From NCBI GenBank assembly GCA_963922205.1, contig CAWUHX010000149.1, forward strand, positions 434,001 through 498,000: 64,000 nt of DNA, written 5' to 3'. The notes beneath the pieces are model-generated. The model ran no database searches. It was not told the origin of the DNA and saw only the letters and a program-made list of their open reading frames with translations. The stretch is from Romanomermis culicivorax (taxonomy: Eukaryota > Nematoda > Enoplea > Mermithida > Mermithidae). The translations under genes and the position numbers were made by a program. This document shows, one piece after another, positions 14,088 through 61,784 of this stretch. Numbering within the stretch: position 1 is the stretch's first letter; each line of letters starts with the position of its first letter.

Positions 14088-14941
14088 CAGGGTTTTTTGC
14101 AGAGGCCAGGTTGCAATGTGCAACATTTCAAAAACTTTGGTTGCACAGACAGATTTTTGGTTGCTCACTCTAAAATCAATAAATTAACTTAATTTTATCG
14201 GAAAACCCACCAAAAGCCAGTTTTTTTCAATTTCATTCGAATCACGTCGCTCTCAGACTTTAAAAACCGAATTTTTTGAGTTTTGAAGAGAAAATGAAAA
14301 CATAGTAACATAGGTAACTTGTTCGGCGCGCAGCAACGAAAATTTTTCTGAGATTTTGATATTCCAGAACGCTGGAAAATGTACCTTTCAACTTTTAATT
14401 TCCAAGATAAAAGACTGTAATTTTTCAGTAAATCCAACGAATTTTCAGTCAGGCTGACTATAATTCTAGAGGAAAGCAATCAAGAATTTCGATTCTTCAA
14501 CCAGCAAGAATTTCTACTCAGACTCAAAATCTTCTAATCGCAGAAATGTCAAAATTTTTTAAAGATAGCAAAAATTTTCGAGGAAAATATACCAAGAAAA
14601 ATCTTTCTCTTCGTTAAATTCACCAAAAAACAACACAGGATCAAACATTAATCCATAGTTATGTTGATAAATAAAAGCTATAAGCATTAGCTAGAGTGAC
14701 ATTTTCTAACCGCGCACTGGAATAATATAGAAAAATGATTAAATAATTCCCATTTGGTACGGAATTGCGCCGGAAAATTTTCACTATTTTCCATTTTATA
14801 ACGCATAAAAATGCCTCTCCGGACAGGAAACCATATAACCTAATCAAAAGGGCAGTCAGGCTTCAAGTTGCACTATGCGACTTGACAGAAAAAATTGGTT
14901 GCACAGCCCGAAATTTGGTTGATGTGGGCAAAAAAACCCTG
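14088..14941. mobile_element. hAT-like non-autonomous element, GTTGCA word
   Basis: The left end is CAGGGTTTTTTGCAG and the right end CAAAAAAACCCTG. The flanks gtagcgat (14080-14087) and gtagggat (14942-14949) match 7/8. GTTGCA/TGCAAC words occur just inside both ends ('gttgcaatgtgcaac' near 14111; 'gttgcactatgcgac' near 14868). Degraded GGCGC hairpins lie near 14323 and 14767. No ORF of interest. Confidence 0.65.
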
Positions 14942-16939: not shown

Positions 16940-17935
16940 AGGCCGGCGTTTTTTTTTGTGCACGGACATTTGTGCCAATTGGCACGAGGCCAAAAACATT
17001 TGTGCCAATGGCACAAAAAAATTTTTTCTACTAAAAACATATACTGAAAACTGTGGAAAGATTTTAGGCCAGAAGTTTGATAAAAATATAAATTAGAGAT
17101 GCGTTTAACCGCATTAATTTTTTGTTACAAATTATGCCCAGCCTAACCTATTTTTCAGCTAATCATGTCAGAGAGATAAGAAAAAACTGTGCAAGAAAAT
17201 AGTTCGCGGCGGCTCAAAAAGAAATGAAATGCCGATAAAATTAAGGCTCTAGAATTGATGATCAAATTGATTCAATTTTAAATACAAATATCTATATATA
17301 TTTAACAACAATGTAAAGACTAGAGGAAATAAAAAGGAAAATTGTGTGAATTTTTGGTCCAAACATTGCACCGATGATATCGATTATTCTGTTTGAATCA
17401 ATAAACACAGAAGCAATTTTTTTCCTATACATGTAGAAATTTTTTTTAAAAAACAAGTTTTCGTCTCAAAATCCTCGTTTTTTTCGCTTGAACATGCTCA
17501 TAAACGCTTTATTTAAGTGTTTTTGAGCTTTTTAAAGCATCCTGATAATCAAAAATTAAATTTAAATTTTGGGTTCATAAATCCTAATTTCTAGAAATTT
17601 ATCATTCGAAAATTTTAAAGCCATTAATTTGTTTGTAACCTTTCATAAATTTGGCCAAAAAGCTATGAGTCAGAAGCGTATAAATTTTCCAAAAATACTT
17701 CCATGAAGCTTTTGGATTGAATTTACGTTAAGAAAGGAACAAACGCTTCAAAAAGTTAGGAAAGTTGACTTGTTGATCTTTCTCAAAGAATAAATGAAGG
17801 AAAAAATGCGGATCTTCATTAAATATAAAAATAAATATTCAAGATTGCCAATTAAACATGAAATAATACGTTTAAGATGATGAAAACTATTAAAGATTAA
17901 ATGGTAAGTGAAGGTAGACATGCTAAAAGTCCTTT
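16940..17935. repeat. Composite of GTGCC-word end and shared repeat body
   Basis: The left part holds GTGCCAATTGGCAC words (16970-17020). From about 17440 on comes a body found again at 54290-54592, 58200-58520 and, inverted, 60960-61480 ('cgcttgaacatgctcataaacgctttatt', 'tttcataaatttggcc'). The segment 17740-17930 matches 57570-57740 and, in part, 48830-49000. It stops where a LINE fragment begins at about 17937. Non-coding. Confidence 0.6.
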
Positions 17936-18415: not shown

Positions 18416-19467
18416 CATGGCCGTGCGCAAGGGGGGACGGGGGGGGGCGGCCGCCCCCCCCCCCATTGAGGCAGTAACTCTAAACCGAAAAGATGCGTTT
18501 TGGTGGACTTTAAAAGGTCAAAATCTCAAAATTTTCCGGCGCTTCGCGCCGGTCATGGGTATAATTATAACTATATTCTATCAGGCGCGGCCGTTAGCAT
18601 ATCTACTTCGACATACTAATTAATGCTCAACAGTTTCTATCAATCAAGTTAGCTCGTTTCATTTTCTAATCGTTTACAGTCAAGTATGTCGCCGAAAATA
18701 GAGATTTTTCATCAAGTCTCTCAATTTTTTTTCTCGATGATTGGAATTTTTTAAACGTTTGCAATCTGAACTTTTGCGTTTATTGAAGGTGGAAATTGAA
18801 GACATTACTCTAGAACGCGATTTCAAAACATTTGTTCACGAATTATCTGTTGGAGAGATTTTTCAGCGTTTTAGAATACAAAAACCCGAAAATTTTTTCG
18901 GCGCTGCGCGCCGAAATGGGACGCAAATTACGCTTCATCAGTCTGATTTTAATTCATTTCCCAACGTTATGAAGGTTCATTTTCCAGCGTTTTAGAAAGT
19001 GAAAATCAAAAAATTTTTCCGGCGCTTGGCGCCGGACCAAGAAAGTGTTTCAGAAACGTTTTAGAAAGTGAAAATCAAAAAATTTTTCCGGCGCTCCGCG
19101 CCGGACCATTCTATAGAACACCAATATATTCTTCATGAGCTCATTTTGACTAACATAACCAGAATTTTCTTAATTTTTTTCCTCATTTTTGCAGGTTTCT
19201 GACTACAAATATAACAAAATGCTTGGGTATGTCCCTAAAATGCATAAAAAAAGCATCCGTAGCCACATTATAAGCGTTTTTAAAAATGTGGAAAATTTTT
19301 GGAAAATGAGGGAAAGGATTTTTGGGTCCGGTTCTCATGTGGAAAAAATCTTCGAGGAAAAAAACGGTGATGCACACAGTATATCCGCGTAAGATCAACA
19401 TTTCCTGGGGCTATTCAGTGAAAAAATCTAGTCCGCCCCCCATGAAAAAATCCTGCGCACGGCCCTG
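18416..19467. mobile_element. GGCCGTGCGCA-ended element carrying a nested repeat
   Basis: The outer ends (GGCCGTGCGCAAGG; CCTGCGCACGGCCCTG) match the intact 151-bp MITE at 36474-36624. The interior between GAGGCAG (about 18465) and GATGCACACAG (about 19369) is filled by another repeat with three GGCGC hairpins (18536, 18897, 19018 and a fourth at 19088) ending in GAGGAAAAAAACGGTG. The composite interrupts the surrounding RT pseudogene. Target duplications are not clear. Confidence 0.65.
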
Positions 19468-26527: not shown

Positions 26528-28116
26528 ATTGATTTTTCTGATTATCTCGGGGGAGCGCGTTAGCCTGTTACAAATATGTAACCTGCGCTTCCTATTACCG
26601 TCATTAACTTGTTTACTGTAGCACATATTTTCGCTGCGATATTGTATTTGTCGGTTTGAAGTAGCCGTGGATTGAGTTTTCGAAACTTTTCTTCGTTTTC
26701 TTATTTCATTTTAATTGTTTGTTCTCGCGTTTTTTTTCTTCTTGTGTTATATTTCGCCTGACAGGTAATAAATCTTCTTCATTCATTCATAAAACTCTGG
26801 AAAATGAACCTTCACAACGTTGAGAAATAAATTAAAATCAAACTGATGAAGTGTAATTTGTCTGAAACTCCGGCGCTAAGCGCCGGAAAAATTTCCGGGT
26901 TTAACACCGGAAAATAAATCTCTCCAACAGATATTCATGAGCAGAAGTTCTAAAATCGCAGTCTAGAATGATGTCTTCAATTTCCATCTTCAATAAACGC
27001 AAAAGTTCAGGTTGCGAACGTTGAAAAAAAATCCAAGCATCGAGAGAAAAAATTGAGAGAATTGATGTGAAATCTCAATTTTGGGCGACATAATTGGCTG
27101 CTAACGATTAGAAAATGAAACGAGCTAACTTGATTGATAGAAACTGTGAAGCATTAATTAGTAAGTTGAAGTAGATATGCTAACGGCCGCGCCTGACAGA
27201 AAATAGTCAAGATTATACCCGTGACCGGCGCAAAGCGCCGGAAAATTTCGAGATTTTGACCCTTTTAAGTCCACCAAAACGCATCTTTTCAGTTTTGAAT
27301 TCCCCAAAATTTTTTCCACAATGAGAACCATACCCAAAATTTTTTTCCTCATTTCGAAATTTTTTTCCTCAAAAGACCCCATTTGAGGAAAAAAACGGTG
27401 CTGGCAAGTGGCAACACTGGGGACTGACCAATTTTCATTTATATACAGTACATCTTTTTCTGTTGAGGAGAACTTGACTACTGTATGAACTTGATGCACA
27501 ATCTGTAGACACACATGAACGATGCAGGACGAGAAATCCTCCCTACTATATGGAAACGATAATATCTCTGAAAAGCGGTTAATTGCTGGAAGGGAATATC
27601 CTGGGGGAAATACCAAATTGGACGCGAGCAATCATTACAGTCTATTCTGGAAAGAGCAACAAACAGCAAAATAATCGGCAAAAATCGACAAGCAGACAAT
27701 AAACGTGCACCTTAGGTGGAGCTGGAAAAAATATATACTATAGGACATAACGGCATCATGTACGAATGCAAAAATAATGAAGAAAAGTGGAGAATATAAA
27801 AATGAACGACGACCGACGGAAGACGAGTTTGGAAATTGCGCATAATCGAGTAAATTTCAAGGTTGCACTGATTAGAAATGTAACTTACCGTAGACTACAA
27901 ACAGCAATCGGAATCTCGCCAGCATAAGTAAAGAACAGTTTCACAAAATTTTGCTCAAACATTCTGCGTGTTACAAAAATGAACTTATGGAAAATAAGTC
28001 GCAACGATCAGAGCAAAACAGTTTTAGTCAAAGACCATCCAGCTGAACGTCAGCGCAGAGAACAAAAAAATAGATTCAAAAACACGATTTCAGAACGAAA
28101 ACCTATAATCTGCGTT

Positions 28117-28361: not shown

Positions 28362-31300
28362 TCACGTTAATCCGCCGAGACAAACGTATTTAACGTTAAG
28401 GTAATCTTCTGTGCCGTAATGGCCGCCTTCTCTGCCCAAGCCAGATTCTTTCACACCGCCGAAGCCGATTTCGCACGCTGACATAATACCTTCGTTGACG
28501 CCGATCATGCCAGCTTCTAAGTGTCTCGAAACTCGAAAGATTTGAGCCAAATCTTGCGAAAAGAAGTAAGCTGAAATTGAAAAAATATGCACTGGACACT
28601 TGACTAAAAACAGAAGCACGTTCAATTGTTGTCCAGTATGAAAATAAGGATAGGTTGCGAACATTAAGAGTTAGGAGATGAATGATTATTATGAATTAAT
28701 GAACTATTCTAGAACACTCCAAGAAAATCTCCAATTCTGATCATCTGAACAGATTGTCATAGTATGTATACAGTCTTTGCCTGCAAAATCACTTACCAGC
28801 CAATCCCGAGCGACAGTCGTTTGCCATTCGTAAAGCTTCCTCTTCTTTCTCGAATTTCACTATCGTAGCGACTGGACCGAATATTTCTTCATCACAGATT
28901 TTCATGTCGTGTGTAACATCGCAAATAAGAGTCGGTTCGTAGAAATTTTCGCCCATTTTGTGCGAAGTACCGCCGATTATTAATCTGGCGCCGTTGGCTT
29001 TGGCTTCGTTGATTAAAAAATCGACCTTGGAATATTTGCCGAACGATAACATGCTATGAACCTCAGAAATTTTGGTACAAAAAGTGCATCAAGAACATAA
29101 AATACTCCGTTATGCATAGGGAAAGTCAATCATTTGTTAGGATACGGAGAAATTGAAATCTCCAATAACTACCGATAAAAGACAACATTTTGAAGGTAAG
29201 AACAGCTGATGCTGGCATTAATTCAAAAAAAATTAACACCGTCTGTACTATAGATGTATCGGGTAGCATATTCTGAAAATATAGGGTCCGGATAGAAAAT
29301 TTTAAGAATAATGAGTTCGGCTTCGCGTCCAAAATGTTAATAATATCTGGTCCGGGTCCAACAAAATGGTCGGGTAATTTCGGGTCTTGTTTCGGATCCA
29401 GTATCTGACATATCTCTACTATAAGGTAGCATATTTTGAAAACATAAGGTCCGGGTACGGGTCCAAAACTTTAGGGATTTCGGGTCCGGGTTGATACATC
29501 TCTAGTCTATACATGCATTACGCCACGATTTATTAGCTAAAGGTAACAAATCTGTATACGTTGATGAAACCAAAAATCTCTCACAGGCGTTTCAGTGCAA
29601 AAAAAGTAAATTTTTGAACTAATCCTTCTTAGAAAATTATATGGAATAAGAAATAAATACTGTCCGATAACTAAATTCAGTCTGAACAAAATCTATACTT
29701 TATCTACAGCTCTTTTATTGATTAGAGGTCCCAGCGTTACGTTCGGAGTTAGTCCGTCACCGATTACAATGATCTTCTGTATGTATTGCTTAAATTTTTC
29801 GATAAATCTTTCGTAAATGGATGACTGAACAAAGAATCGATTGGCGCTAACGCACGTTTGACCACTGGCACGAAATTTAGAACAAAAAGCGCCGTGAACA
29901 GCCTTATCTAAATCAGCCGATTCGAAAACAATAAACGGCGCATTGCCTCCTAGCTCCATGGAGATTTTCTTGACAGTCCCGGCCGACAATTGCATCAGAA
30001 GCTAGAAAAATTGTTTCGCTACGTCGAAATTTCACAAAAATTAAACATCCCAAATCATTCCAAACACCCTATAATAATAGAAGCAAAACATTTGTTCCGC
30101 TCATACACATGAGCGTAGGTTTTTTTCGGCCCGGCTCGATTAAACAAAATAAAGCCCGAAGCCCGACCCGAAAGTCCAATTTTAAAAATTGTTGTTAATT
30201 TGAAAAAAAATTTAAAAAGAAAGAGTGTGAGTAAAGAACATGGTTGGTCGGGCCAAGCTTTGGCTACTTTGTCCATAGTTTTTTAGTTTTGAAAAAAAAA
30301 ATAAAAAATCGAAAAGCTCTTGGTTTTCTTCAGGTACACTGAAAAAAATTGGGTGTCACCGCTGTTTTTTTGTACGAGACAAACATTTTTGGCTCCATAC
30401 TAAGCGCAACTTTAATTTTTTGTAAAATGCAGAGTTTTTGTTTAAACAAGACAACACTTTTACAAAATCAAAAGCAGCCATAGTAATTTCATCTGTAAAA
30501 TTTTCGTGTGGATTTCGCATATTGCCCGAATTACACCACTTTGTTCATGGCCTACTCAATTTTAGAACGTGCAAAAGTTACATATTGATTTGAATGGACT
30601 AGAAGTGTTGTGATGGTTCAAAGAAAGTTTCAAACTGAATTTCACTATGATCCACCAACAGCTAGTAGCATTCGTAAATGGTACAAGCTTCTAATTGAAA
30701 CTGGATCCATTTGTGATGTGAAAAGGAAGAGGAGTCACTCCGTCAATTCTGCTGAAAATTCAAATCGTGTGCAGGAACATTTCACAGATCCACATTCTTC
30801 AACTCAGTGGGCTTTAAATTCCCTTGGAATCAGTCAAACGACCATTCGACAGATTTTAAAGGATTTAAAATGGCACCCTTATAAAATTCAAGTGGTGCAA
30901 AAAATTATGGATGAGGATAAAGAAAACAGATTAGAATTTTCCCAAGATGAATGGACAACAACGAACATTCTTGTCAATTCGATGTTTTCAGACGAGGCAC
31001 ACCTTCATTTGGATGGTGGTGTTAACAGGTATAATCACCATTATTGGTCGCCTACTAATCCTCAGTGGATCACTGAATAAGGGTTGCATTCGCCCAGAAC
31101 AGTGGCATGGGCGGCAATTGGTCACCATGGTTTGATCCAGACTACCCCATGGGGAGGGGTATGGAGGGGGTATTACCCCTGCCTAAAGTCCTAAAAATTG
31201 ATCACTAGTTGCCTAATTTTGAGACAAAATGACGTGTTTAGTGGGCTTTGTAGCTACACTACCCCTGCAAAGTTTCAACTTTACCCCTACCGGGAAAATC

Positions 31301-34300
31301 TGACCTTGGGGACCTCTGGTTTGATCGGTCCATTTTTCTTTGATGAAACTGTTAACAGTGATCGTAATTTGAACATGCTTCAGTACCAATTCTATCCTGG
31401 GTTACAAGAGTGACTACTAGAAGATTCCATTCTCTTTATGCATGATGGGGCTCCCCTCATTGGGGTCCGCCTGTTCGTGATTGATTAAATCAACAGTTTC
31501 CAGAACATTGGATCGGTCATGGTTCACCCAACATGCCATGGCCGCCTAGATCCCCTGATTTGAGACCCTGAAATTTTTTCCTTTGGGGCTTAATTATGTC
31601 GGAAGTTTATACCACTCGTCCGGCAAACATTCAACAGCCTAAGAATCGCATTATTGCTGCTTTTGGAGAGGTTACTGTTGAAATGCATGTAAAAGTTATA
31701 TTAGAATATGGACAACGTTTGTACAAAATTATTGAAACTCATAGTGCTCATATTGAAACGTACGGTCAAACTCATAGTTGTGCTATTATCATGAAATTTT
31801 GGGAATAGAAACTTTGATGAATGAAGCGTGTTTGTACACAGTTTCACGGCTATATCTAAAAATTAATCATTGCAAAAATAAAATTGCGTATAGATAAGCG
31901 GCTAACCCTGTACAAAGAGATTTTATCGACATTATCTGGTCAGAAAACACTTCTCCAGGCTCTAGTATCAGAAAACACAGTTAAATTTTCCGGCGCTTTG
32001 CGCCGGATTTTATTTTATTATTCTTAGCAATGACCTATCTACTATTTTTCTAAAAATTGTGCTCCCTGGAGAAAAAATCTCTGAAAAAGAGAAAAAAATG
32101 TTGGTAGCCTTGTATGGAAAAGACAAATTTCGGTGCATTTCAGAAGGTCAAAATGTATCTTTCCGACCTTTTTGTAACTATGATTTTAAACATGAATCAA
32201 AGTTTGAATTCAGGAGCATCGTGGAAGTAATTTTCATAAGCTCCAGGTTAAACCTGAAGTTTTCAAATTTATGAGAGTAAGAGTATATCTTCTCGATCTG
32301 TAAAATGATTATGAAGGACATGAGCTCGAGTGCTATCAGGAAGAAGGTTTGTGCGAAAATACACGAAAGATCGTGGGTTTTTTATTGTACAAAAAAATGT
32401 TCTTCCTACGAAGAGTTTTTGGCCGACCTTTGTACAGGTACAGAGGCATGTACAAAAAAAACACTGGGTGTCACGAACATTATTTATTTGATTCAGTACC
32501 CACAATGAACATAATCAAAAACTATAACTTGCACATCAAAATTTTTCGGTTTCCTGGGCTTTTGAAAAATAATTCCCGAGAAATTTTTCAGACGGCCCGA
32601 ACCTTTCCCGAAGCCCGTATTTCGGGCCAGGATTTCACTCGGGGCCGGGCTTTTGGGCTTAAATTCAGGTCCTAATGCGTAATCTCACGTAAACGGCTCT
32701 GTGTAATCAATCTAGCCTACGAAATGGTAGGCTTGCCATAGGCCCAAATCCACGTGACCGACGCGTCGAAAAATAACGCTCGCTTAGGGGTTCGAACCCT
32801 CGACCTTCTGCACACAAGGCAGACACGCTACTAACTGCGCTAACCGAGCCACGTAGATATTTCGGGAATTGTGGTTGTAGTGGTGGTGGTGAATGCAGGG
32901 CATGCCACGTAATGAACAGCCGGACGCACCACTACAACAGGCTTTGACCATGTATGGTTCAGCCTGATGAAGTTACAGCAGGTTTTCTTACTTTGCCGAC
33001 TGCCGTACTTCCAGTAAATGAAATGGCGGCAACTTTGGGAGATTCACACAAGAATTTCCCGATGGAAGCTGTATGTTGTCGATCGGCGGTCACAATGTTG
33101 AAAACTCCTTTTGGTACACCGGCTTTTTCAGCAAGCTAGAAAAAATGCTGATATATATAGCTGATCTTGGATAAAACTTGCGTTGGATATTTTGCCGTAG
33201 CATAGTTTATAATAGTTGATCGATGAGAATAAAAAAAGAAACCCGGAAAATAATTACTTATTTCTCGTATTCACTTTGCTGAAAAAACAACGAATCATTT
33301 GATAAAAAGACTAAATTACGGTTTTTGATTATCATCCTTGAGTTCCTAGTTCACAAATTAAACTTTAGTAAATTTCCTGTTTTTTGGTTCAGAGATGCCT
33401 CACTAAACTTCTAGCCTGCTTTAAAGAATGTTAAAGATTCGAATGTGACACTTCATATTTAGCTGCCTTTTGTTAATTGCAGAATTAGTGCCTCAAGGGG
33501 ATACGGACAATTCGTCTCCAGTAATTCGCCCCAAGCAATTCGTCACCCACAATTCGCCCCCAGTAACTGGCCCCCAATTCACTGTTTTTTAATTTAAAAA
33601 ATTCAGATTTAAAAATAACTCCACTAGGTTGCTAGCAGTTATGTAATAGCATTTCTACACATCTATGCACAAAACCTGGAGATTTTTCCAAAGAAATAGC
33701 ATGTTTATTTATGAATTCTGCATGCAGAGTGCAAGTATTATGTACAAGAAGAAAATGATCTGTACAGCAATGATCCAAATAAAGGTCCACAAATAATTTT
33801 TTTTCTTTGAATATAAGATTTTTTGTTAGTGCTAAGTCACTATAAGCCTTTTTTACTCGTACGGTCAGCACTACAGGCATATCAGCAGTAGTTCCCTAGA
33901 GATGAAGTAACCAGTTGTTTTTTTCCACTTGAAACAAAATGTGTGACTTCAAGTTTAAAACGAAGGCTTGCAGCTAAAGTTTAACTGACTGAAGATGATC
34001 AATTTCGACCAAAAATCTGTGAAAAATCTCAACACTGGCAATTTACAAATTCATATTTTTTCAAGTTTGTAATGAAGGTGTCCTAATCCCCAGAAACCAT
34101 GCCAAATTTTAGTCTGATAGCGTGAATACCCGAGAAAATTTAGGCAGAATTTTAACGTGCAACACGGATATCATAAGCAGAATTGCCAGTCATTTATGTT
34201 CTTTGATCTGGATTTGTTTTTTTATGTTTTTTAATTTTCTTTTTTGTATTCCTCTTTTTTGTCATTCATCTTTCTTGTATAGTTCCTTCTCCTATATTTT

Positions 34301-45200: not shown

Positions 45201-48200
45201 AAGCAACTAATCAACCAATCTGGGAAACAACAGACCAACTGATCTGGGAAGCATAAATAAAACTGACCTGCGAAGCAAACAATCAAATTGGGAAACAATC
45301 AATCAAGTGATCTGGAAAGCAACCAGCAAGCTGACCTGGAAAGCAACCAATCACCAACCAATTTGGAAAAAACCAACCAACTTATTGGGAAAGCAACCAA
45401 TCAACCAATCTGGGAAACAACAGACCAACTGATCTGGGAAGCATAAATAAAACTGACCTGCGAAGCAAACAATCAAATTGGGAAACAATCAATCAAGTGA
45501 TCTGGAAAGCAACCAGCAAGCTGACCTGGAAAGCAATCAATCACCTGATATATATGAAGCAACCCACGAATCTAAGAAACATCCAGCCAACAAATACAGG
45601 AATCAACAAACCAACCAATCTAGATTCAACCAACCAACTGATCTGGGAAACAACCAACTGGTATGGGAAACTACCAACCAACTGGTCTGGAAAGCAACCA
45701 ACTAACCAATCTGAGAAACAATCAACCAAGTGATCTGGAAAGCAACCAGCAAACTGATCTGGAAAGCAACCAACCACCTGATATATAGGAAGCAACCAAC
45801 GAATATAGGAAATATTCAACCAAAAAATCCAGTCAACTAATCAACTGATGTACGAAGCAACCAACTGATTTGGGAAACTAACGACCAACTGATATGGGAA
45901 ACTACCAAGCAACTGATTTGGGAAACTACCAACCAACTGATCTGGGAAGCAAACGACCAATTTATGAAACAACCTATCAATCTAGGAGTCAAACAACTAA
46001 ACAGTGAGGCAACCAAAAAGCTTAGGAAACAGTCAATCAGGGAGTCAACCAAAAAAAATTGGGTAGAACCAAGCAATTCGAGAGTTGAACTTGACAAACA
46101 GCCAATAAAGCCAACCAGGGAGAAAACAACAAACTAATCATGGAGTCAGCAACCATCATCAAACAAATTTAAGAAACTATTAACTAATTTAATATTAAAG
46201 TGTAAAATTGGCCAAGATACTGATGAATATGTGACTATACTTTGTGCGTCGCTGTAGACCTATCGTACTCATGAAGCCACCATAATATAAACCTCTGGGA
46301 CCTTATGCAGCGAGCAAAAAAAAGTCATGCTGGGCGTGGTAAAAGTACTTAATACCTTTACCGTATAAGATTTTGCCCCTATCTAGATTTTCGATCTTGG
46401 GGACATCTGGCATCAATCAATCAGTTATTAACCCGGGGTCCTTGTTCTGGAGAATTAAAGCATAAGGAGCACAATACAAATGTATTCAAGAGGAAAAAAA
46501 CAAATACGATGAGAATAAGAAAACAGAATGAACCCGAACCAGAAATACGTGCATATCGTTTTTTTCGTCAAAACAGTGTTTTTGGTGGCAAAAACAAATT
46601 TTGAGAGTTCAGAATTGCATAGGCGCATTTTTACGAAACTATCTGGCGCTTCGCACAAAGTATGATTCAAATGGTTATTCAGTATTTTTTTTGTATGAGA
46701 CGGATATTTTTGACTCCACACAAAATTTTGTTGACATTTTTGTACAGAGCACAGACAGTTTCGGCATATACTGGCCTAAAAACACTTTTCCATGCTCTAA
46801 AACTAGTAAAACACCAAGAAATTTTCGAGCGTTTCGCGCCCGATTGTATTTCATAGTTACTCGGATTGGTTTATCGAAGCAATCTTTGCAGATGCGTATG
46901 CAGAGTGCAAACAATGTAACTGTATCGGTATTGGTTACAGCTACTTCTTTACCAATATTTATAAACAGGTCATATGATCTCGATTTTAAATGGAGGAAAA
47001 TCCGTGTTCAACGGTTTAAACAATATGAATTCTAAGCTTTCTAACATTCTGCATGAGAAGCTTATTACAATAAGAAATTTGTATTTTTCAATATCGTATC
47101 TTATATGTACGTGCCTGCTATAAAGAGCATAAATTCAAGTGTGAGAAAATTTCCTCTGGAACCTGAACAAAATTTCGTTCATGAAATGATTTGGATTTTT
47201 CATATGTACAAAAAAGAAAGCCAAAAAAAGTTTCTGCACTGCGGGTTTTCTCCTGTTACCACTGTTTTTTCCCCCGGGCCTTTTACCCAAGTAGGGAAAG
47301 GGGCCAAAATTTTTTACACATTTTCCCCCAGCCTTTTTTCGCTTAAAAATGCTCGTAGACGCTTTATTAATGTGTTTTTGAGCTTTATCAAACCTTCTGG
47401 TGTTTTTAGAGCCGTTAATTCATTGAAATTGAGGAAAAATTGTAATTTTCGAGTTTGATCGAAGTCTAATCTATAAGCATTGTGGAACAAATTTTCCAAC
47501 AAACTACCCAAGAGCATAATGACTTTGAATTACATGAGAAATCGACGGTTATCCAAGTCCTCTATAATGAAAAATGAGAGCGCCCAAAAGATGTTAATGT
47601 TTCCGGCGCGAAGCGCCAGGAAAGCTTTTTGGGTGCGACGCTGAAAAATCAATTTTCCGAACATTCATTTCAAGAATTAGATTCGAATTTTGTCGTAATT
47701 TCTAAAATTGTATTACTTAAAAAATTTCAAAACAGTAATTTATTCGAAAACACTCATGAACTTGGCTGAAAAGATTTGATGAGTAAATTCATTATCGGGT
47801 CGGAAAATTTTTCCGACGCTGCGCGCCGGAAACAAGGTTATGCCGGCAGTCGAAAATTGGAATTTTTGCGCTTTAGATTGTTGTTGATTTTGCTGTATTC
47901 AGCGCTATCTGACCTAAAATTCAAAATCTTTACTTTCGCCTTAATTTACACAAATTACTGACTAATGGAAGAATAGAATGCAAAACATGCTCGAAAGCGT
48001 GCATATAAAAGACCATTGGGCATTTTAGAGTGAAAAAGCATTTATGAACAATATTGAAACAACCTTTTTGAAAAATTACAACAAACCTAAATAAATTTGG
48101 CTCGGGTAGCTACGTACAAAATTTGCTTTGCCGAGGTATGCCTATGGCCAGCCCATTTTTGCCATAAGATTAGAAAATCTTGGAGAGGATTCTTAATTAT

Positions 48201-51200
48201 GCATCCCAAAATAGCTCGGAAGTGACTTTCGGAAAGCCCCAAAACATTGCCAAGAAAAAAAATATATATATTTGATGAATGGTTAAAATCTCAAATTTTA
48301 TAGCTCTTTTCCTCGGAGGAGAATTATACAATACACTGCTGCACTGTCGTACACAAACAATCTTTTAGGAAGTTATTCAAGTGCATCGGGATGAAAATGA
48401 AGCATCAGTTTGATTCAGAATATAATTTGGAAGGCCCAAAACCACATTTTTTGGCGCTGGGCGGCGGTCATACTCATAAAAGATCTTATTTTATAAATCA
48501 TGCACAATCCCCTGAAAACCTTTGAAATGCATCGAGGAACCTTTTGCCGTTTTTTTAACTTTTTTTTTGCACGAGCTCTTTTGCACGATGCAAAAAAATC
48601 ACCAAAAAAGTTTCGAAAAATTTTTTTGTACTATAAGCAGGTTTTTTTTTTGTACAACATGAGATAATACGGTTGGGATGATTAAAACTGTTATACATTA
48701 AATGATAGGTGAAGGTAGACATTCTGAATGCCGCCTCTGGGCTATGTAATACATACTAATGATTATTAAAGCTATAACCCGCGCGAAGCGCCGGAAAATT
48801 TTGAGATTATTACCTTCTAAAATGCATCAAGTTGATGTGTTGATCTTTCTCAAAAAATGTATGAAGGAGAAATGGGGATCTTCTTTCATTAAATACAATG
48901 ATAATTGAAGATCGCCAATTAGACATGAAGTAATACGTTTAAGACAATGAAAACTATTAAAAATTAGTGATAAGTGAAGATAGACATGCTAAAAGTCGGG
49001 CCTGAGCTTGACAATAAATAATAATGATTATTAAAGTTTCAACCGGCGCGAAGCGCCGGAAAATTTTGAAATTTGGGTCCACTAAAATGTATCTTTTCTA
49101 TATGAAAACACCAAATTTTTTTTCGCAATTGATAAATATTTTTTTGCACGGTGCAAAAAATCTGAAAAAAAAGTTTTACACGAGCAGAAAAAGTTTTGCA
49201 CAGTGCAAAAAAAACACTGGGTCTAAGTACCACAAAGTCGCATCATATAGATTCTTAGCATATCAACTAGCCGCTACTTAGACAAAAATATGTATTTTTT
49301 AAGGTAGACTAAGCACAGGCTAGTTTTAACATACGTCCCTTGAACTTTGCAAATAGAAAATTTCGTCTGAGAACCGGAATGGACCGTAAATGTAATTAGG
49401 GGGGAAGTACCATAAGAAACCCCACATGAATCGTAGGCCATATGGCCAGCCATACATGTAATTGGGTGGAAGTGCTATAGGATAGGAAACCCTCCCCAGA
49501 AATCTTCGGCCATATGGCTAGCTACTGGACAACCCCAGGATTTTCCAATCGTATGGCTAGCCGTATGGTAGTCGTAGGGAACCCCATACTTTCGGCCGGA
49601 AAAATAATAAAAAATGTCAATTTTTTGACGAAAAATGTCGATTTTTGAACAAAAATGGTCAGAAACATCAATTTTCTCGGCGCCATAAATACATTTTTTA
49701 TGGTTTTTAGACAAAAATTATGTAAAATTAAATTTGGAACCGTTTTTCGAACTTTTTTCGGACTCTTTTTTTCGGTTCACCAAAAATCTTTCAAGAACAT
49801 CTAGTGTTTCAGGATTTGTAGTCCCTAAATGGGATTTAAGCAACCAAAAACACAATTGTATTTAGATGAAAATGGGAATTTTTTATCGAATGATGGTGAC
49901 CTCATTCGAAAATCAATAGAATATGATCCGGTTAGCTCACCATCAGTTCATCACAAACATAAAATCAGCAATTTTATACTGAAATGTTTGAGAAATCATT
50001 CATAACTGTTGAAATGGAGTATATCATAGCTCCATAGTAACTCATAATATATGGGCAGAGAAATACCGATCACTTTTTTCGGGATCGGAATCCCGAGCGG
50101 ACCCTATCCGCGACCATCTAAAAAGTTCTTGACTATGCACGTGCTTATTCCCAATTTTATAAAAACGGAAACGTTATGTTTTTCATTGAAACTGAATTTT
50201 TGATTTGCAGTTCCGGCTTTTCGCATTATTTTTCATCGTTTTTGGCCACATTTTCGAACGTTTTCTACAACACGCCCGGCCTTGGTCGTCCAACGATCCC
50301 TCCCATTCAGGTACCCATTAATCAGTCCTTCAAACTCCAAGAGCTGTTACATTTGGTAAGATTTTGATTTTTCCCCAACAATTTGGATCAAATTTATGTT
50401 TTTTTCCAAAAAATTAAAAAAAAATTTTCTGCAGCCATCTGATATTCAAGCGTACTGTTTCAGTCATTAAACTGAACTAAGTTCGATTTTATTCTCAGAC
50501 TGTTGGCATCAAGCATGAAGGTTGAAAAACACAAAATCATTAAAAGATTTGGATTTCTGGGAGTTCAACATGAATTTTCAGATTCATGACTTTTATATTT
50601 AAGTTGTTTAAGTTGTGAGTACAAGCTCTAAAAAAATATCTTACCTTTATCGCTTCTAATTTTTTGAAGTAATTGTAGATCACGCTCAATTTCCGTCCCA
50701 ACGAACCAATTTGACTGGCAGAGTCAGCAGGTTCGATGACAGTGCGATCGTCTTCTTCCTGAAAATAACAAGAAGGCTAAATAATGATATGCTTTGAAGA
50801 ATAGCAGTCTAATAAATATTCATGAAGGTTTCTTATTGTTTAACAGCAATAGCACAAAAATCACAAGATCATCTGGTATATATACTGTAAAGGATACCAT
50901 GACTGACAACACGATTTTATAGAATTCAAAAATTGGGCAACGGAACATATAAAGAAAACGAAGATAAAAACAATAAAAATTAACTAATTCGAAAAACAAT
51001 GAATAGAAGGCACGTTCTTCCACCCGATAAACAGGATCTAGTTTTCTGGAATGATTTATCAGCTTCAATATTAAACAGCTGACGAGTAGTGACGTCACAT
51101 CCGTGGAAACAAATTGAGGAAAATGGTCTTACGGCCAATTGCTTTAATCGCTCCGGCGTTAGAGTATCATCAATCTGGTCGCATATAAAGTCGGGAACAT

Positions 51201-52569
51201 CTGAAAGCCAAGCCGTGACGAAGTCCTTGTAACAGAAAAAGAAAGTAGTACGGGCTAGTTATGCTCCTCAATGTTCACCAGTATAATGCATTTTAAACGC
51301 TTGTGTGCACAGGCAGGTGAACCAAAAATAAGATAAGATAGCAGCATACATGTCATTAATAAATATCTGCCAGCCTATTCAAATCACCTATACTGACATA
51401 GACAAAAAAAAGTAACTTTGCACTTCTTCAAGCCAAAAAAACACATGTCAAATACCGTTTCGTAAGTCGACATATTCACGACCAAATATCGACGCAATTA
51501 CTAAAACTTCATTTCATTATTTAAAATATGATGTAGTACTTCTTATCAATTCACACAAATTAACTAAAAAACGACTACTACCACTGCTTCTTTTTACAGA
51601 AAAACATTTTTGGCTTCGTGCGAAGATTTTTTTGGTAATCTTTGTACAAAGTACAAGAAGATTTTATCGACATTATCTGGTCAGAAAATGCTTCTCCAGG
51701 CTCTAGTATCAGAAAACACAGTTAAATTTTCCGGCGCTTTGCGCCGGATTTTATTTTATTATTCTTAGCAATGGTCTATCCACTATTTTTCTAAAAATCA
51801 TGCTCTCCGGAGAAATAATTTCTGGAAAAGTTAAAGAAATGTTGGTGGTCTTGTATGGAAAAGACAAATTTCGGTTCATTTCAGAAGGTCAAAATCTATC
51901 TTTCCGACTTTTTTGTAACTATTATTTCAAATATGAATCCGAGTTTGAATTCGGAAGCATCGTGGAAATAATTTTCAGAAACTTCAGGTTTAACCTGAAG
52001 TTTTCAAATTTATGAGAGTATGAGTATATTTTCTTGATCTGTAAAATGATTATGAAAGACATGAAATCGAGTGCTATCAGGAAGAAGGTTTGTGTGGAAA
52101 TAAACGAAAGGTCGCGTTTTTTTGAGTGTACAAAAAAAATTTTCTTCGTACAAAGAATTTTTGGCCGATCATTGTACAGGTAAAAAGAGGCTTGTACAAA
52201 AAAACAGTGACTAATACAGGTAGGTAAAAAACACTACAGACTTGGAACAATGAAGTATTTATTTGAATTGGATATAATTTTTGAAACGCTTGATAACGAA
52301 AACTTTTGGAAATTGCAAAGCTCAGCAGATCCCCACATTTATGGCAGGGAGTCAAGTGTCTCACAAGTAATCAATTTGTCACCCTGATGAGTACTGCTTA
52401 CAAAATAAATTATATCGAAATCTTAAATAAGTGAAGTTGTCTTTGCAGTAATCTGATCATGCGCTAAGATATTATACTATTTAAAGTCATTAAATACCTT
52501 ATTGCCGTCAAGATATTTCGAAATCCATTCGCGCAATTTTTTCATCTCATCATTCGTAATAGTATTCAT
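39244..52569 (-). CDS. Histone-fold domain protein (NF-Y/CHRAC-like), seven coding exons
   Basis: The exons on the minus strand are 52569-52498, 51225-51133, 50758-50645, 40807-40490, 40025-39914, 39849-39570 and 39304-39244, together 1,050 nt (349 aa plus stop). The first three and the last four groups are each well supported by consensus GT-AG sites and in-frame joining. Joining them across 40808-50644 rests on matching phase 0, so they could be two genes, or exons could be missing. The N-terminus has KLREWISKYL and WLSDVPDFICDQIDD. The middle is Lys/Arg-rich (KASKLSSAKRKVVEEKSA). The C-terminal 90 residues, from RVIFLPSSCIKTIISKFAPD through AASIIYLEKIIRKAEELA to DYVVSKDMNEVY, have the helix pattern of CBF/NF-Y-type histone folds as in CHRAC or Pol-epsilon small subunits. 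That suggests chromatin or DNA-replication work; the exact family is not recognised. An alternative stop lies at 39568-39566, overlapping the last donor. Confidence 0.6.
40920..41380. repeat. GAGCC and TGTAC word repeats in the histone-fold gene intron
   Basis: GAGCCAAATGGCTCC and AAGGAGCC words (40938-40976) are followed by a TGTAC cluster (41128-41230: 'catgtataaag', 'ttgtacac', 'tgtgtatttttgcac'). These are the subterminal words of the AGCCAATTGGCT and TGTAC families. A degraded GGCGC word lies at about 41329. No boundaries were resolved. Confidence 0.4.
43380..43690. repeat. G-rich repeat fragment joined to a CAGATGTCCCC MITE end
   Basis: The left part repeats the pattern seen at 8720-8865. 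At 43596 begins CAGATGTCCCCAAGG followed by 'aggtaggggtaaaatcgtatacgg'. The same order appears reverse-complemented at 46325-46412. These are fragments of a hAT-type MITE related to 18163-18342. ORFs across it are frame shadows. Confidence 0.5.
44340..44608. repeat. Left part of a palindrome-rich repeat split by the 44609-48140 element
   Basis: It contains GCGCGAAGCATCG, 'ttttttgttcaaaaat' and 'catggggttcctatggcc', parallel to the units at 13084-13880. The same unit resumes at 48141 ('cctatggccagcccattttt', 'ttagaaaatcttggagaggatt'), directly showing insertion of the element between them. Confidence 0.65.
44819..46200. repeat. CAACCAACTGATCTGGGAAG minisatellite
   Basis: About 1.4 kb of a degenerate unit of about 16-24 bp, best described as CAACCAACTGATCTGGGAAG with many variants. 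A higher-order duplication of 190 bp is present (about 45171 onward repeated from 45361). Long minus-strand ORFs here (repeated Ser-Gln-Ile-Ser-Trp-Leu-Val) only mirror the DNA repeat. A reverse-complement relative is at 37080-37330. Confidence 0.9.
46325..46412. repeat. hAT-type MITE fragment
   Basis: The reverse complement of 43596-43680: it ends CTTGGGGACATCTG and contains 'accgtataagattttgcccctat'. It lies inside the 44609-48140 element. Confidence 0.6.
48500..49214. repeat. Repeats with GGCGC hairpins and GCAC/GTGC words
   Basis: Two hairpins (48780-48795 and 49046-49061) each follow 'aatgattattaaag'. The body 48830-49000 matches 57570-57740. The segment 49046-49214 is one element end built on TTTTTTGCAC/GTGCAAAAA words (49135-49205) and closing AAAAAAAACACTG. 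An inverted word cluster of the same type at 48570-48660 may be the partner end of a neighbouring copy. Confidence 0.6.
49395..49800. repeat. Palindrome-rich repeat (CCATATGGCTAGCC words), inverted copy
   Basis: This is the reverse complement of the 13084-type unit. 'ggccatatggctagc' and 'accccaggattttccaatc' are followed by 'gtatggctagccgtatggta', 'gaaccccatactttcggcc' and 'gaaccgtttttcgaac'. It sits in the long intron assigned to the histone-fold gene. Confidence 0.6.
50211..50357 (+). other. Orphan exon-like segment on the plus strand
   Basis: A TTTTTGATTTGCAG acceptor precedes, and a TTG-GTAAGA donor follows, an open frame reading SGFSHYFSSFLATFSNVF and then YNTPGLGRPTIPPIQVPI. Its composition is less AT-rich than its surroundings. 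No adjoining exons were recognised, and I do not recognise the protein. It may be a captured gene fragment or chance. Confidence 0.3.
51582..52209. mobile_element. hAT-like element, TGTAC word, 628 bp
   Basis: The left end CACTGCTTCTTTTTAC and right end GTACAAAAAAACAGTG have flanks actactac (51574-51581) and actaatac (52210-52217), a 7/8 match. From 51660 to the right end it is collinear with 31912-32466 and shares the GGCGC hairpin (51731). TGTAC words are dense at 52125-52200. It sits in intron 1 of the histone-fold gene. Confidence 0.8.
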
Positions 52570-53806: not shown

Positions 53807-53889
53807 TGTCGGCTCGGATCGCAAACAACATTTCGAAAATTGTTAACTATCGATTCCTCATACTCAAAGTCATTATGTTGTTGGCTAGT

Positions 53890-54592
53890 TTGCTGGAAAA
53901 TTTGTCCCTTAATGCTTGTAGATAAGATTTCGAACTGGAAAATTTCAATTTTCCTCAATTTTGATGAATTTAAAAACACCAGAAGGTTTGAAAAAGCTCA
54001 AAAACGCTTAAACAAAGCGTCTATGAGCATTTCAAAGCGAAAAAACGACTCGAGGAAAATAGGGAAAAAATTTCGACCCGTTACCCCATTTGCGGAAAAC
54101 ACCCGGGTGGGGAAAACAGTGGCAAGAACTGTCATCAATTTGATTGATCGAAAAAATGCAGTTAACTGCTTTCTAACCATAGGTCTAGATTGTATATCTC
54201 GCTACAGCAACCGTCTAATAATAGCTACCGTCCCACTATATCCAACGTGTCACTATAGGAAAGAGGTCAAAATTTTTTTTTCGTCTTAAAATCCTGGTTT
54301 TTTCGCTTGAAAATGCTCATCAACACTTTAAGTGTTTTTGAGCTTTTTAAAGCATTCTGATAATCATTCTGATCATATATCTCAAAAATTAGATTTAAAT
54401 TTTGTGTTCATAAATCGTGATTTCTAGAAATTCATCAATCGAAAAATTTTAAAACCATCAATTTGTTCGTAACCTTTCATAAATTTGGCCGAAAAGCTAT
54501 GAGTCAGAAGTATAGAAATTTTCCAAAAATATTTCCATGAAGCTTTTGAATTGAATTTACGTTAAGAAAGGAACAAACGCTTCCAAAAAAAT
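53890..54592. repeat. Shared repeat bodies flanking a LINE insertion
   Basis: 53930-54120 carries the 'aaaaagctcaaaaacgc' body with CCCGGGTGGGG words and a GAAAACAGTG end. 54285-54592 matches 58200-58500 and 17460-17745. At about 54592 ('aacaaacgcttcc') the match breaks and resumes at about 57565, which brackets the LINE between them. Confidence 0.6.
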
Positions 54593-57565: not shown

Positions 57566-57895
57566 GAAAAGTTAGTTGACGTGTTGATCTTTCACAAAAA
57601 ATCTATGAAGGAAAAAATGCGGATCTTCATTAAATTTAAAAATATATTATTCAAGATTGCCAATTAGATATGAAATAATACGTTTAAGATGATGAAAACT
57701 ATCAAAGATTGAATGGTAAGTCAAGGTAGACATGCTAAAAGCCACGCCTGAGCTTGGTAATAAATAATAATGATTATTAAAGTTATAACCGGCGCAAAGT
57801 GCCGGAAAATTTTGAGATTTAGAACCATACCCAAAATTTTTTTCCTCATTTCGAAATTTTTTTCCTCAAAAGACCCATTTGAGGAAAAACTGTGC
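57565..57895. repeat. Repeat body with GGCGC hairpin and CCTCA/TGAGG words
   Basis: It continues the host repeat of the LINE. A hairpin lies at 57789-57805 (one mismatch), then 'cctcatttcgaaattttttt' and TTTGAGGAAAAAC, the same end found at 27340-27400. Confidence 0.6.
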
Positions 57896-58149: not shown

Positions 58150-58766
58150 TATTCGCCAAAAATTCCAATTTTTTTCCACGCGTGGAAAAAAATTTTTTGT
58201 CTCAAAACCTTCATTTTTTCGCTTGAAAATGCTCATAGACGCTTTATTTAAGTGTTTTTGAGCTTTTTAGAGCATTCTGATAATCATTCTTCTGATCATA
58301 TATTTCAAAAATTAGATTTAAATTTTGTGTTCATAAATCGTAATTTCTAGAAATTTATCATTCTAAAAATTTTTAAACCATTTATCTGTTCGTAACCTTT
58401 CATAAATTTGACCGAAAAGCAATGAGTGAGAAGCGTAGAACTTTTCCAAAAATACTTCCATAAAGCTTTTGAATTGAATTTACATAAAAAAAACAAACGC
58501 TTCAAAAAGTTGAGAAAGTTGACGCGTTGATCTTTCTCAAAAAATCTAAAAGTCGCCCCTGAGCTTGGTAATAAATAATAATGATTATTAAAGTTATAAC
58601 CGAAGCGCCGGAAAATTTTGAGATTTGGACCTCCTAAAATGCACCAAAATGCATCTTTTCAATATGAAAACCCCAAATTTTCCTTCCACATTTGTGGAAA
58701 GACCTCAAAAATTTTTTCCACATTCCAGATTTTTTTCTACATTATAGTGCAAATGTGGAAAAAACA
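58150..58766. repeat. hAT-like repeat copy, CCACA/TGTGG word
   Basis: Starts among CCACGCGTGG words, runs through the shared body (58200-58560), a deleted hairpin (58601) and ends with CCACA/TGTGG words and GTGGAAAAAACAGTG at about 58766. It is collinear, inverted, with 60557-61569. The left boundary is unclear. Confidence 0.55.
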
Positions 58767-58775
58767 GTGTTTGGC

Positions 58776-58955
58776 AGTGTTTTTTTTTGTGCCAAAACAT
58801 GGTTTTTGGCACAAAAAAATTTGGAATGGCACAAAAAATTTTGAGCGTTTGTGCCAATTGGCACAAATTTTTTGACTGGTCCAAGGCTAGATTTCCTTGA
58901 TTTTTAGTCATTTTAAGGGCTGAAAACGCAAAATTTTTTCGGCGCTTCGCGCCGA
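58776..58955. repeat. GTGCC-word element end with GGCGC hairpin
   Basis: CAGTGTTTTTTTTTGTGCC, then GGCAC/GTGCC words, then the hairpin CGGCGCTTCGCGCCG (58939-58953). The mirror image of 61611-61784 and 15021-15196. Confidence 0.65.
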
Positions 58956-59639
58956 TTCAATGGGTTTAATATTGACTACTTTCCTTTGTCTCGAACGCGA
59001 GCGGATTCTATTCAAATAATTTATTTGTATTATCGCAACAGACTTTGAGATTGTCAATGACCGGCTAAAGAATAGAAATTGTTAACTTTACGTCCTCTGT
59101 TAATTCAGTTGGATTGAGAACCGAGACATATATTTTTGGTAATTGATTCAAACAAAAAAATTGAAATTTTTGGCACAATTATTCAGCCAAAAATCTACGC
59201 GAAGCAACTTTCGACTTTTTCAGGATAAAACAATTATAGACATGTACAAGAAATCCTAATTTAATCTTTAATATAGTTGTTTGTTAGGAAGGAGGCCGAA
59301 AAGTAAAGGGACAAAAAGTCTATAAAAATATCTGAATTTTCGCAGCATTCAATTTCTTTTCGGATCGTAGAAACCGTTTTTCAGATCAGTTTTTCTTATC
59401 TCGCTGACGTGGTTGGAGAAAATAGAACAGGCACGATTTTTATGCAAATGAATGCGGTGAAAGTATCTGTAGTTAGTTTTTATCAAACTTGAAAGAAAGA
59501 AAGAAAATAAATTTATTAAATGCAAAGAAATACAAGAGTAAATATGAATAATACGGAATAGCTCATGAACATGACAAAAGCACGTGCGAATTGAGCTTTA
59601 AAAAATGACTCAATTTAGATCGAAAACAGCGCATACTGT

Positions 59640-59987: not shown

Positions 59988-61784
59988 TAGCGTTTTTTTT
60001 TGTGCACGGACATTTGTGCCAATTGGCACAAGAGGCCAAAAAACATACTGAAAACTGCGGAAAATTTTTAGGCCAAATGTTTGATAATAATATACCCATT
60101 TGAAGCTACGTTTAACGCATTAATTTTTTTGTAAAAATCGTGCCCAACCTATTTTTCAGCTAACCACGACAGTGAAATAAGAAAGAACTGCAAGAAAATC
60201 ATTCACGGCGACTTAAAAAATGCTGAGAAAATTTGAATAACTCTAGAATTGTTTAGGAAGTTCAAATTGATTCAATTTTCGACTGCGAATATCTATATAA
60301 TGCAAAGGCTAGAGAAAATAAAGTCTAAAATTGTGTAAATTTTCGGTCGGAACATTGTATCAACGATATCGATTTTTCGATTTGAATATATCAAACACAA
60401 AAAGTAAGGATTTCAGTTTTAAATCCGAATCTGACTGAATGAACAGAGAATATTCAGAATTTCTTTTGAATCATTAGTCATTGACAGCCTCTAAAGTTTG
60501 CTCCAACGATACTAATACACTGTTCGAAGAGAAATCGTTTGCGTTCGGGTCCAAATCACTGGTTTTTTTTCCACATTTGCACTATAATGTGGAAAAAAAT
60601 CTGGAATGTGGAAAAAATTTGAGGTCTTTCCACAAATGTGGAAGAAAAATTTGGGGTTTTCATATTGAAAAGATGCATTTTGGTGCATTTTGGGAGGTCC
60701 AAATCTCAAAATTTTCCGGCGCTTCGCGCCGGTTATAACTTTAATAATCATCATTATTTATTCAGTAGCTCAGGCGCGGCTCTTATCATGTCTACCTTCA
60801 TTTATCACTTAATCTATAATAGTTTTCATCATCTTGAATGTATTATCTCATGTTTTAATTGGTAATCTTCATGATATTTAAGGAAGATTCGCATTTTTTC
60901 CTTTTGAGAAAGATCAATACGTCAAGTCTCTATGCTTTTTGATGCGATTATTTCTTTGCTAACGTAAAATCAATTCAAAAGCTTCATGGAAATATCTTTC
61001 GGAAATTTATACTCTCCTTACTCATATATTTTCGACCAAGTTCATGAGAGTTTACAAAATTACATATTTTAAAATTTTCCAGGTAAAATTCTAGAAATTT
61101 CGACTATTGAACACAAAATTGGAATCTAATTCTTGAAATAAGTGTTCGGAAAATTGATTTTCCAGTGTCCCAGAATGTCAATATACCCAAAAAATTTTCC
61201 GGCGCTACGCGCCGGAAAGATTACCATCTTTTTTGGGCTTTCACTTGCCATCATAGAGGACTTGACCATCGATTTCTCATGTCATTCAAAGTCAATTATG
61301 GTCTTGGATAGTTTGCTAGAAAATTTGTTCCACAATGCTAGTAGATTAGGCTTTTAAGTCGAGCATTTCAATTTTTTTCAATTTTAATGAATTAACCTCT
61401 AAAAACACCGGAAGGCTTGAAAAAGCTCAAAAACAGTGCGATAAAGCGTTTGTGAGCATTTTAAAGCAAAAAACGAGAATTTTAAGACGAAAAAAAATTT
61501 TCCACATGTGGAAAAAAAATTTGACCCCTTTCCACATTTGTGGAAAGAAGTTCGTGGAAAAAAACCAGTGGTCCAAATACGAGTAGGAAATATCATATTC
61601 ATTGAAGCAGCGCGAAGCGCCGAAAATTTTTGGCTTTTTCAGCGCCTAAAACGTCTGAAAATCAAAGAAATTTAATGTTGGACTAGCCAAAAATTTTGTG
61701 CCATTGGCACAAACGCTTAAAATTTTTTGTGCCATTCCAATTTTTTTTGTGCCAAAAACCATGTTTTGGCACAAAAAAACACTG
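59988..61784. mobile_element. hAT-like element (GTGCC word) with a nested insertion
   Basis: The left end TAGCGTTTTTTTTTGTGCAC and right end GGCACAAAAAAACACTG are flanked by a perfect 8-bp duplication ttatgcct (59980-59987 and 61785-61792). GTGCC/GGCAC words are present just inside both ends. It contains the complete second element 60557-61569; without that and one duplication its own length is about 776 bp. Its GGCGC hairpin is at 61611. Confidence 0.88.
60557..61569. mobile_element. hAT-like element, CCACA/TGTGG word, nested
   Basis: The ends CACTGGTTTTTTTTCCACA and GTGGAAAAAAACCAGTG are inverted complements. They are flanked by a perfect 8-bp duplication gtccaaat (60549-60556 and 61570-61577). 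CCACA/TGTGG words are dense in the outer 100 bp on both sides. There are two hairpins (60716-60732 and 61199-61215). The central body matches 57570-57740, 48830-49000 and 17460-17930. The clearest complete member of its family here. Confidence 0.92.

Follow-up and report, generated by a model that had tools for sequence, protein, structure and literature searches.

The short transposons that crowd the window (the whole stretch of 64,000 nucleotides analysed here, on contig C149) were best explained as related families of non-autonomous hAT transposons (MITEs). In each family, a short word repeated at both ends would be the site of a transposase's BED zinc finger, and the variety of words would have arisen both by change in place and by exchange of ends. 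We considered this explanation likely, judging the identity of the elements, the role of the word and the two routes to variety jointly. The evidence came from the window and from searches of the genome (359 Mb in 595 contigs).

Elements, tips and target-site duplications

Besides numerous nested repeats, the window contained retrotransposon reverse transcriptases, a partial gene for a PP2A B56 subunit and a tandem array at 44723-46026. The array was built on a 24-bp unit (CAACCAACCAACTGATCTGGGAAG) and on higher-order repeats, among them a 190-bp pair with 98-99% identity. The elements (Table 1) ended in CAGTG, CACTG, CACCG, CAGCG or CAGGG, each followed by a T run, and CAGTG and CAGGG tips are typical of hATs. 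Genome-wide, the CAGTGTTTTTTT tip pattern had 6,966 matches, compared with 471 for a backward-read control, and the terminal inverted repeats were short, with about 12 bp common to both tips. Tip pairs with 8-bp duplications were sought in the window and in about 0.29 Mb of loci, yielding 20 rows, 18 of which had a duplication with at most one mismatch. Among the insertion flanks (n=72), T occupied position 2 in 54% and A occupied position 7 in 56%; nTnnnnAn, the target pattern given for Hermes (PMC10368747, available in part), is a preference in these elements and not a rule.

The 17 elements of the end-comparison set described below were 325 to 2,107 bp long, and copy number was high, with at least 40 scored copies for each probe. 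The TGTAC element at 30360-32466 enclosed a Tc/mariner-like transposase fragment at 30589-31077.

Table 1. Elements, ends and junctions in the window. Percentages are nucleotide identities; copy identities refer to the best 40 matches against one query each.
Feature	Position	Strand	Observations
GTGCC element, outer, split by CCACA element	59988..61784	.	TTATGCCT flanking both sides; L-type tip 59988, R-type tip 61784
CCACA element nested in GTGCC element	60557..61570	-	GTCCAAAT flanking both sides; R-type tip 60557, L-type tip 61570; body with 39 other copies at 91-95% among the best 40 scored
Second CCACA copy, internal deletion	58169..58769	+	R-type tip 58769
R-type GTGCC end with its own body, adjoining the CCACA copy	58775..59025	+	Probe 58775-59100: self and at least 39 others, 96-98%
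TTGCAC element, body common to CCACA	48653..49219	+	R-type tip 49219; left tip degenerate, near 48550; probe 48830-49219: self and at least 39 others, 90-92% among matches listed
CCTCA end on shared body	57574..57894	+	Tip 57894; final 70 bp 98.6% identical to 27324-27393; inner part 78-92% to other bodies
CCTCA end and body	26790..27400	+	Tip 27400; probe 27051-27400: self and at least 39 others, 94-97%
CCTCA-type element	18476..19369	.	L-type tip 19369; 85% match to 26790-27301 inverted
Junction: CTGCA left end / CCTGTTAC / CCC left end	47217..47327	+	CCC tip 47260; 82% match to left junction of L083 composite
CCC left end and shared body	47260..47786	+	47335-47786 against 61473-61018: 78%
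CCC left end outside a CTGCA element	53843..54125	-	Tip 54125; 77% match to CCC part of composite junction
TGTAC element with Tc/mariner-like fragment inside	30360..32466	-	GGTGTCAC flanking both sides; Pfam DUF4817, HTH_Tnp_Tc3_2
TGTAC element copy	51582..52209	-	L-type tip 52209, other tip degenerate; 89% match to 31910-32460
GTTGCA element, CAGGG tip	14088..14941	.	Duplication GTAGCGAT/GTAGGGAT
AGCCAATTGG element, CAGGG/CAGG tips	9872..11312	.	Duplication TTTTGGTA/TTTTTGTA, by eye
Shared-body fragment	17450..17929	+	77-92% to 57574-57741, 48829-48997, 60780-61136

Family words and agreement of the two ends

Inside the tip stood a repeated word that differed by family: GTGCC, CCACA, CCTCA, CCC, TGTAC, TTGCAC, CTGCA or AGCCA, and after CAGGG tips GTTGCA or AGCCAATTGG. 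CCC, with tips 47260 and 54125 in the window, and CTGCA and AGCCA, found in other loci, were additions to the words given by the initial annotation. Clusters were counted as runs of at least four words spaced by no more than 60 bp and were compared with 30 first-order Markov simulations of the window. By this measure, GTGCC formed 5 clusters (0.00 simulated), CCACA 3 (0.00), TGTAC 3 (0.20) and GCAC 11 (2.00).

The GTGCC and CCACA elements and the TGTAC element at 30360-32466 that the initial annotation had described were borne out, each with its duplication on both sides; the CCACA words reported at 60557-61569 belonged to an element of their own, nested in the GTGCC element. GCAC was real as a repeat but was better read as TTGCAC. 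For GTTGCA and CCTCA, enrichment over the whole window was absent (33 occurrences vs 33.4 expected, and 64 vs 79.1, respectively); both nevertheless repeated at element ends, and the GTTGCA element had a duplication. A further proposed word, AGCCAATTGGCT, had no exact occurrence in the window, although shorter forms such as AGCCAATTGG were present. Of the two places assigned to that word, 9872-11312 showed a duplication by eye and 52886-53806 did not.

Agreement between ends was measured in 17 elements with duplications, taken from the 20 tip-pair rows by dropping L057 1150-2118 and window 25962-27400 (two duplication mismatches) and L029 (99% identical to L030). The left and right ends of one element shared a mean of 11.6 5-mers, compared with 3.6 for elements with other words, a level reached in 1/10,000 shufflings, and with one element taken per word the true left-right pairing was the best for 7/7 words. 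A repeated 5-mer common to both ends, with at least four copies over both, occurred in 15 of the 17; the other two (L083 and the window element at 30360) were weaker, having no shared 5-mer at four copies, and their word was assigned by eye. Opposite ends from other copies of the same family shared even more (17.3 5-mers) because some copies lie inverted. The word therefore belongs to the element, at both of its ends, and the claim that these words behave like hAT subterminal repeats was upheld. Single ends with GCCCC, GCACC, AGCGC and TAGCAC, at L067 1501, L005 836, L057 1150 and L049 1259, respectively, hinted at further word families.

End scaffolds and hybrid ends

Ends of L-type were laid out as tip, word, about 9 nt, TTT, word and inverted word. 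The commonest R-type layout was tip, word, about 13 nt, inverted word, a AAAAAAATTTGGAAT-like spacer, inverted word and a further dyad. With the words masked, the R scaffolds of CCACA, CCTCA, CCC, GTGCC and AGCCA resembled one another in 10/10 pairs at p <=0.02 against run-rich control windows (per-pair values, from 21 pairs in all; CCC and AGCCA were single copies). The control windows came from the same loci and included some MITE ends, so these p values should be conservative. The CTGCA R scaffold showed no resemblance to those of the same five words (p 0.06-0.84) and a slight one to that of TTGCAC (p 0.016-0.025), and comparisons of TTGCAC with the others were mixed (p 0.012 to 0.46). L-end scaffolds were alike for most words when judged by a letter-shuffle null only; z-scores of this kind are inflated by A and T runs, and the R-end likeness rests instead on the run-rich control windows. 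Five words on one recognizable R-end scaffold therefore appear to have changed in place, and much of the variety looks like change of this kind.

A GC hairpin (GGCGC-N3-GCGCC or a near form) was a second feature common to R-ends of different words. Among 32 R-ends of GTGCC, CCACA, CCTCA and TTGCAC, 19 had a hairpin within 300 bp, in 18 of these at 161-173 bp from the tip and in the remaining one at 134. Other ends tested had it in 3/31 cases, at different distances, and random windows had it anywhere in 192/3,000. The form with GGAAAATTTT, GGCGC-N3-GCGCCGGAAAATTTT, matched the genome 5,128 times and its reversed control 0 times. In the window, the hairpin stood at 60718, 58941, 49045, 51733, 18538 and 13 other places, and many copies were followed by AAAATTTT.

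The CCTCA family carried two words in its left end. This end, CCTCGAAGATTTTTTCCACATGAG, had CCTC as its first site, followed by a dyad made of a CCACA half and a CTCA half (inverted TGAG). The genome was queried for either base, A or T, at the position that decides between the two forms: hybrid left ends of the CCTCA type had 1,302 exact copies, compared with 0 in the reversed control, and the CCACA form was present in 100/100 of the copies listed from these 1,302. Judged from its sequence, the hybrid looks like a widespread intermediate between the two words, in either direction.

Shared bodies and exchange of ends

The internal bodies that the initial annotation had described as common to several elements were confirmed, with 17460-17930, 48819-49124, 57574-57837 and 60641-61136 (inverted) aligning pairwise at 76-92%. 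A body starting GAAAAGATGCATTTTGGTGCATT stood behind R-ends of five words (TTGCAC 10, CCACA 8, CCTCA 8, CTGCA 3 and CCC 2; 35 rows minus four false anchors), in agreement with the claim that one body can be found with different words. Body identity to CCACA was 0.83 for CTGCA, 0.81 for TTGCAC and 0.70 for CCTCA. End-scaffold z-scores followed the reverse trend, at 3.0, 6.0 and 7.7, respectively, in the letter-shuffle comparison that A and T runs inflate. The interiors of GTGCC and CCACA were weakly alike around the hairpin, and part of the interior likeness may therefore be old common descent.

Probes across the end/body joins matched themselves and at least 39 other places, at 82-90% for CTGCA and 84-95% for CCC among the matches listed, some of which ended up to 13 bases before the probe's end. 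The unequal identities of the families, from 96-98% for GTGCC and 94-97% for CCTCA through 91-95% for the CCACA body and 90-92% for TTGCAC to those of CTGCA and CCC, suggest that the families may differ in age.

The clearest exchange involved CTGCA and CCC. In windows of 30 nt with starts between 15 and 75 bp from the tip, the two were 0.33-0.63 alike, compared with a null mean of 0.54, whereas windows starting at 90, 105 and 120 were 0.87, 1.00 and 0.97 alike. L056, L083 and the window at 47217-47327 had the same three-way chimera, in which a CTGCA left end was followed by CCTGTTAC (CCTGTAAC in L056), a CCC left end and the body. A 345-bp CTGCA element with its own duplication (L063) had no shared body and matched the composite for no more than its first 77 bp. 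On the right side, the CTGCA end was common to L063 and L056 up to GATCACAT, after which L056 continued with CGGATACAGAAAAGATGC; in CCC, CGGATACAGAAAAGATGC stands after GGGGAT. CTGCA elements hold two parts of a CCC element, its left end and its body, and lack its right end. The simplest reading of this arrangement is that a CCC element was inserted in a CTGCA left end, that its right end was lost and that the composite then spread. A change of ends by the body is supported in this one case, with breakpoints that can be located.

A second case, TTGCAC, is possible. These elements keep CAATTGTGGAAAAAAATTTGG inside their TTGCAC sites, and it resembles the innermost CCACA site (CAAATGTGGAAGAAAAATTTGG). 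A second tip-like CAGGGTTTTTTTTGTACAAC was also observed inside TTGCAC left ends, where the shared body starts (48640-48660 in the window; L065 1590, L081, L082 and L084), and is perhaps another relic of a nested element.

End and body trees were built from 27 rows of five words, leaving out L057, L027, L006 and L064 (broken bodies) and four false anchors. The incongruence between them for which the initial annotation had proposed a test, and which we had expected to be strong, was not observed: no significant conflict was found for these five words when CCACA, CCTCA and CCC were held together in the body tree (AU p=0.119), and we read the word topologies as compatible. The argument for exchange therefore rests on breakpoints, which are clear for one word pair only.

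These results bear on the model of the initial annotation, in which MITEs would routinely swap whole recognition ends to use different transposases, each word acting as a code. Five words on one body, the amplification of each end/body join to at least 40 copies, and one clear and one possible exchange are what such a model would lead one to expect. The five words on one R-end scaffold, the hybrid CCTCA/CCACA ends and the non-significant tree conflict argue against it, and the clear case is explained by nesting and loss of an end. End swapping thus stood as an event, in CTGCA and possibly TTGCAC, and failed as a general rule; in its full form, we consider the model unlikely.

The opposite reading, in which one ancestral element diverged by descent, with ends changing faster than bodies, words drifting and no exchange, draws on the compatible trees, on the likeness of L-end scaffolds across most words (against the letter-shuffle null only) and on the hairpin's constant spacing from the R tip across four words. 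It does not fit the CTGCA and CCC bodies, which were 0.87-1.00 alike from 90 to 150 bp behind ends that differed as much as described above, nor the CCC left end that lies within CTGCA elements but is missing in L063. The composite junction already disfavours descent alone, which we regard as quite unlikely.

Transposase search and BED fingers

Autonomous hAT elements with ends of these words, for which the initial annotation had suggested a search, were sought in 30 PF05699 loci, 10 PF14291 loci, 8 BED loci and 4 upstream stretches, with 150/1,837 PF05699 and 150/798 BED candidates scored. The loci sampled, many of which showed one element end or none, yielded no transposase with CAGTGTTTTTTT ends. 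Where the boundaries of the coding elements in these loci were readable, they were of another kind, TAGNGATG/CATCNCTA or CAGGCCCGTAGC. CAGTG-type ends near PF05699 domains (L014, L026, L027, L031 and L032) were taken, from their orientation, as separate neighbouring elements. In two copies of one hAT group (L026 2734 and L031 2824), a CTGCA end lay about 1 kb from the dimerization domain, by shared insertion or by coincidence.

P elements also make 8-bp duplications, and the lack of a hAT transposase inside a CAGTGTTTTTTT element in the loci sampled would fit movement of the MITEs by P elements or another superfamily with duplications of this length. The nTnnnnAn flanks point to hATs, as do the word dyads immediately behind the tip, a position also known from Hermes and Tol2 (PMC10368747), and movement by another superfamily is very unlikely.

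Elsewhere in the genome, elements with a BED or hAT domain (L009-L038 and L085-L096) had word arrays of their own, with GGATCC, GGATATCC, GGTGCC, CGGCCGAT, GGCCGAGG, GGTTAACC and GGGTACCCG, many of them palindromic. A word array and a BED finger occurred together, in one locus or in two adjoining stretches, in six groups. Three had a TAGNGATG left tip: GGATCC (L085-L087), GGTGCC (L092) and CGGCCGAT (L088). The fourth was GGCCGAGG (L090), and the last two had a hAT dimerization domain in the locus: GGTTAACC/GGTTTC (L035 with L094, counted in its relative L037) and GGGTACCCG (L032 with L096). Pfam assigned the BED finger in 6/6 groups, and the six BED sequences differed. The dimerization domain was also found in other GGATCC elements. 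GGATCC is the word of the L009/L010 group as well, which is not among the six, and one word therefore need not mean one BED finger.

Proposed mechanism

Hermes BED fingers bind repeated subterminal sites cooperatively, with AT-rich flanks and a quasi-palindrome just inside the tip, and in Tol2 a palindrome follows the tip (PMC10368747). Hermes had been cited by the initial annotation for GTGGC-type sites; the available part of that source instead holds that GTGGC should be re-evaluated and favours AAGT. BED proteins derived from hATs have varied motif preferences, and the preferences of four hAT-encoded proteins match the subterminal regions of their own elements (PMC8097297, available in part). 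By analogy with these proteins, the words of the CAGTGTTTTTTT families are putative BED sites, and the word is likely to be an address read by the transposase.

Each end comprises a common tip followed by the family word, direct and inverted, at set spacings on an AT-rich scaffold. We propose that the transposase would recognize the word through its N-terminal BED zinc finger, with fingers binding pairwise at the word dyads. Paired binding would gather transposase subunits on both ends, and the tips would then be cut and inserted with an 8-bp duplication. A transposase would move only those elements whose ends carry its own word. The anatomy of the ends, the duplications, the agreement in word between the two ends, the likeness of the scaffolds and the three-way chimera are observations. 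Beyond these, we infer reading of the word by a BED finger, the use of different words by different transposases and the sequence in which events took place.

Variety would arise by two routes. In the first, copies of a shared scaffold would change their word at several sites in place, leaving hybrids such as the CCTCA left ends with a CCACA half-site. In the second, exchange, a CCC element would enter a CTGCA left end, the CCC right end would be lost and the body would spread under CTGCA ends. It is conceivable, though we put this forward with some doubt, that one genome has kept a whole series of word changes in one lineage of parasitic MITEs, the word being rewritten at several sites of a conserved scaffold via half-site hybrids, the body passing between words by nested capture and outliving successive transposases. 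That the words are instead sites for host proteins or a structural signal, with no bearing on the transposase that acts, is extremely improbable, as they differ by family, agree between the two ends of an element and sit where hAT transposases bind (PMC10368747).

Relation to known systems and significance

The closest published parallels are ordinary hAT ends and, where elements with different ends have a body in common, the CMITEs of coral (PMC2872659, available in part). Like the ends of Hermes and Tol2, those described here had short tips, repeated subterminal sites, a palindromic site pair inside the tip, asymmetry between left and right, AT-rich sequence and nTnnnnAn 8-bp duplications; unlike them, many words occurred in one genome on similar scaffolds, and the elements were non-autonomous (PMC10368747). 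The coral CMITEs are likewise MITE families with a common interior and different terminal repeats. They are of piggyBac type with CC[C/T]T ends, and family word arrays, hybrids and nested-capture junctions were not encountered in the available part of that report (PMC2872659). The elements here lacked the CC[C/T]T terminal motif, their tips being of the five forms given above.

Similar to these families, the hAT-derived BED proteins (CGGBPs) include fingers of related hATs whose preferred short motifs differ and occur in the subterminal regions of the respective elements (PMC8097297). That study measures proteins across species, whereas the variety here is one of DNA ends within one genome. 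Galileo of Drosophila also has ends remodelled by insertion of other elements and, its authors argue, by exchange between copies; it differs in belonging to the P superfamily, in its long terminal repeats and in having two subfamilies in both transposase and terminal-repeat trees (PMC4168063, available in part). Besides the report on coral CMITEs, the literature consulted, in which subscription journals were thinly covered, yielded no description of elements with a common body and differing subterminal words. The additions of this study are the set of words on similar scaffolds, the widespread hybrid and the nested-capture junction.

This genome offers directly testable material: related ends bearing at least seven words, a widespread half-site hybrid, a captured body whose two donors can both still be recognized, and several pairs of word and BED finger in other elements. 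It bears on how non-autonomous elements persist once their transposase is gone, and on how DNA-binding specificity changes when many sites must change at once.
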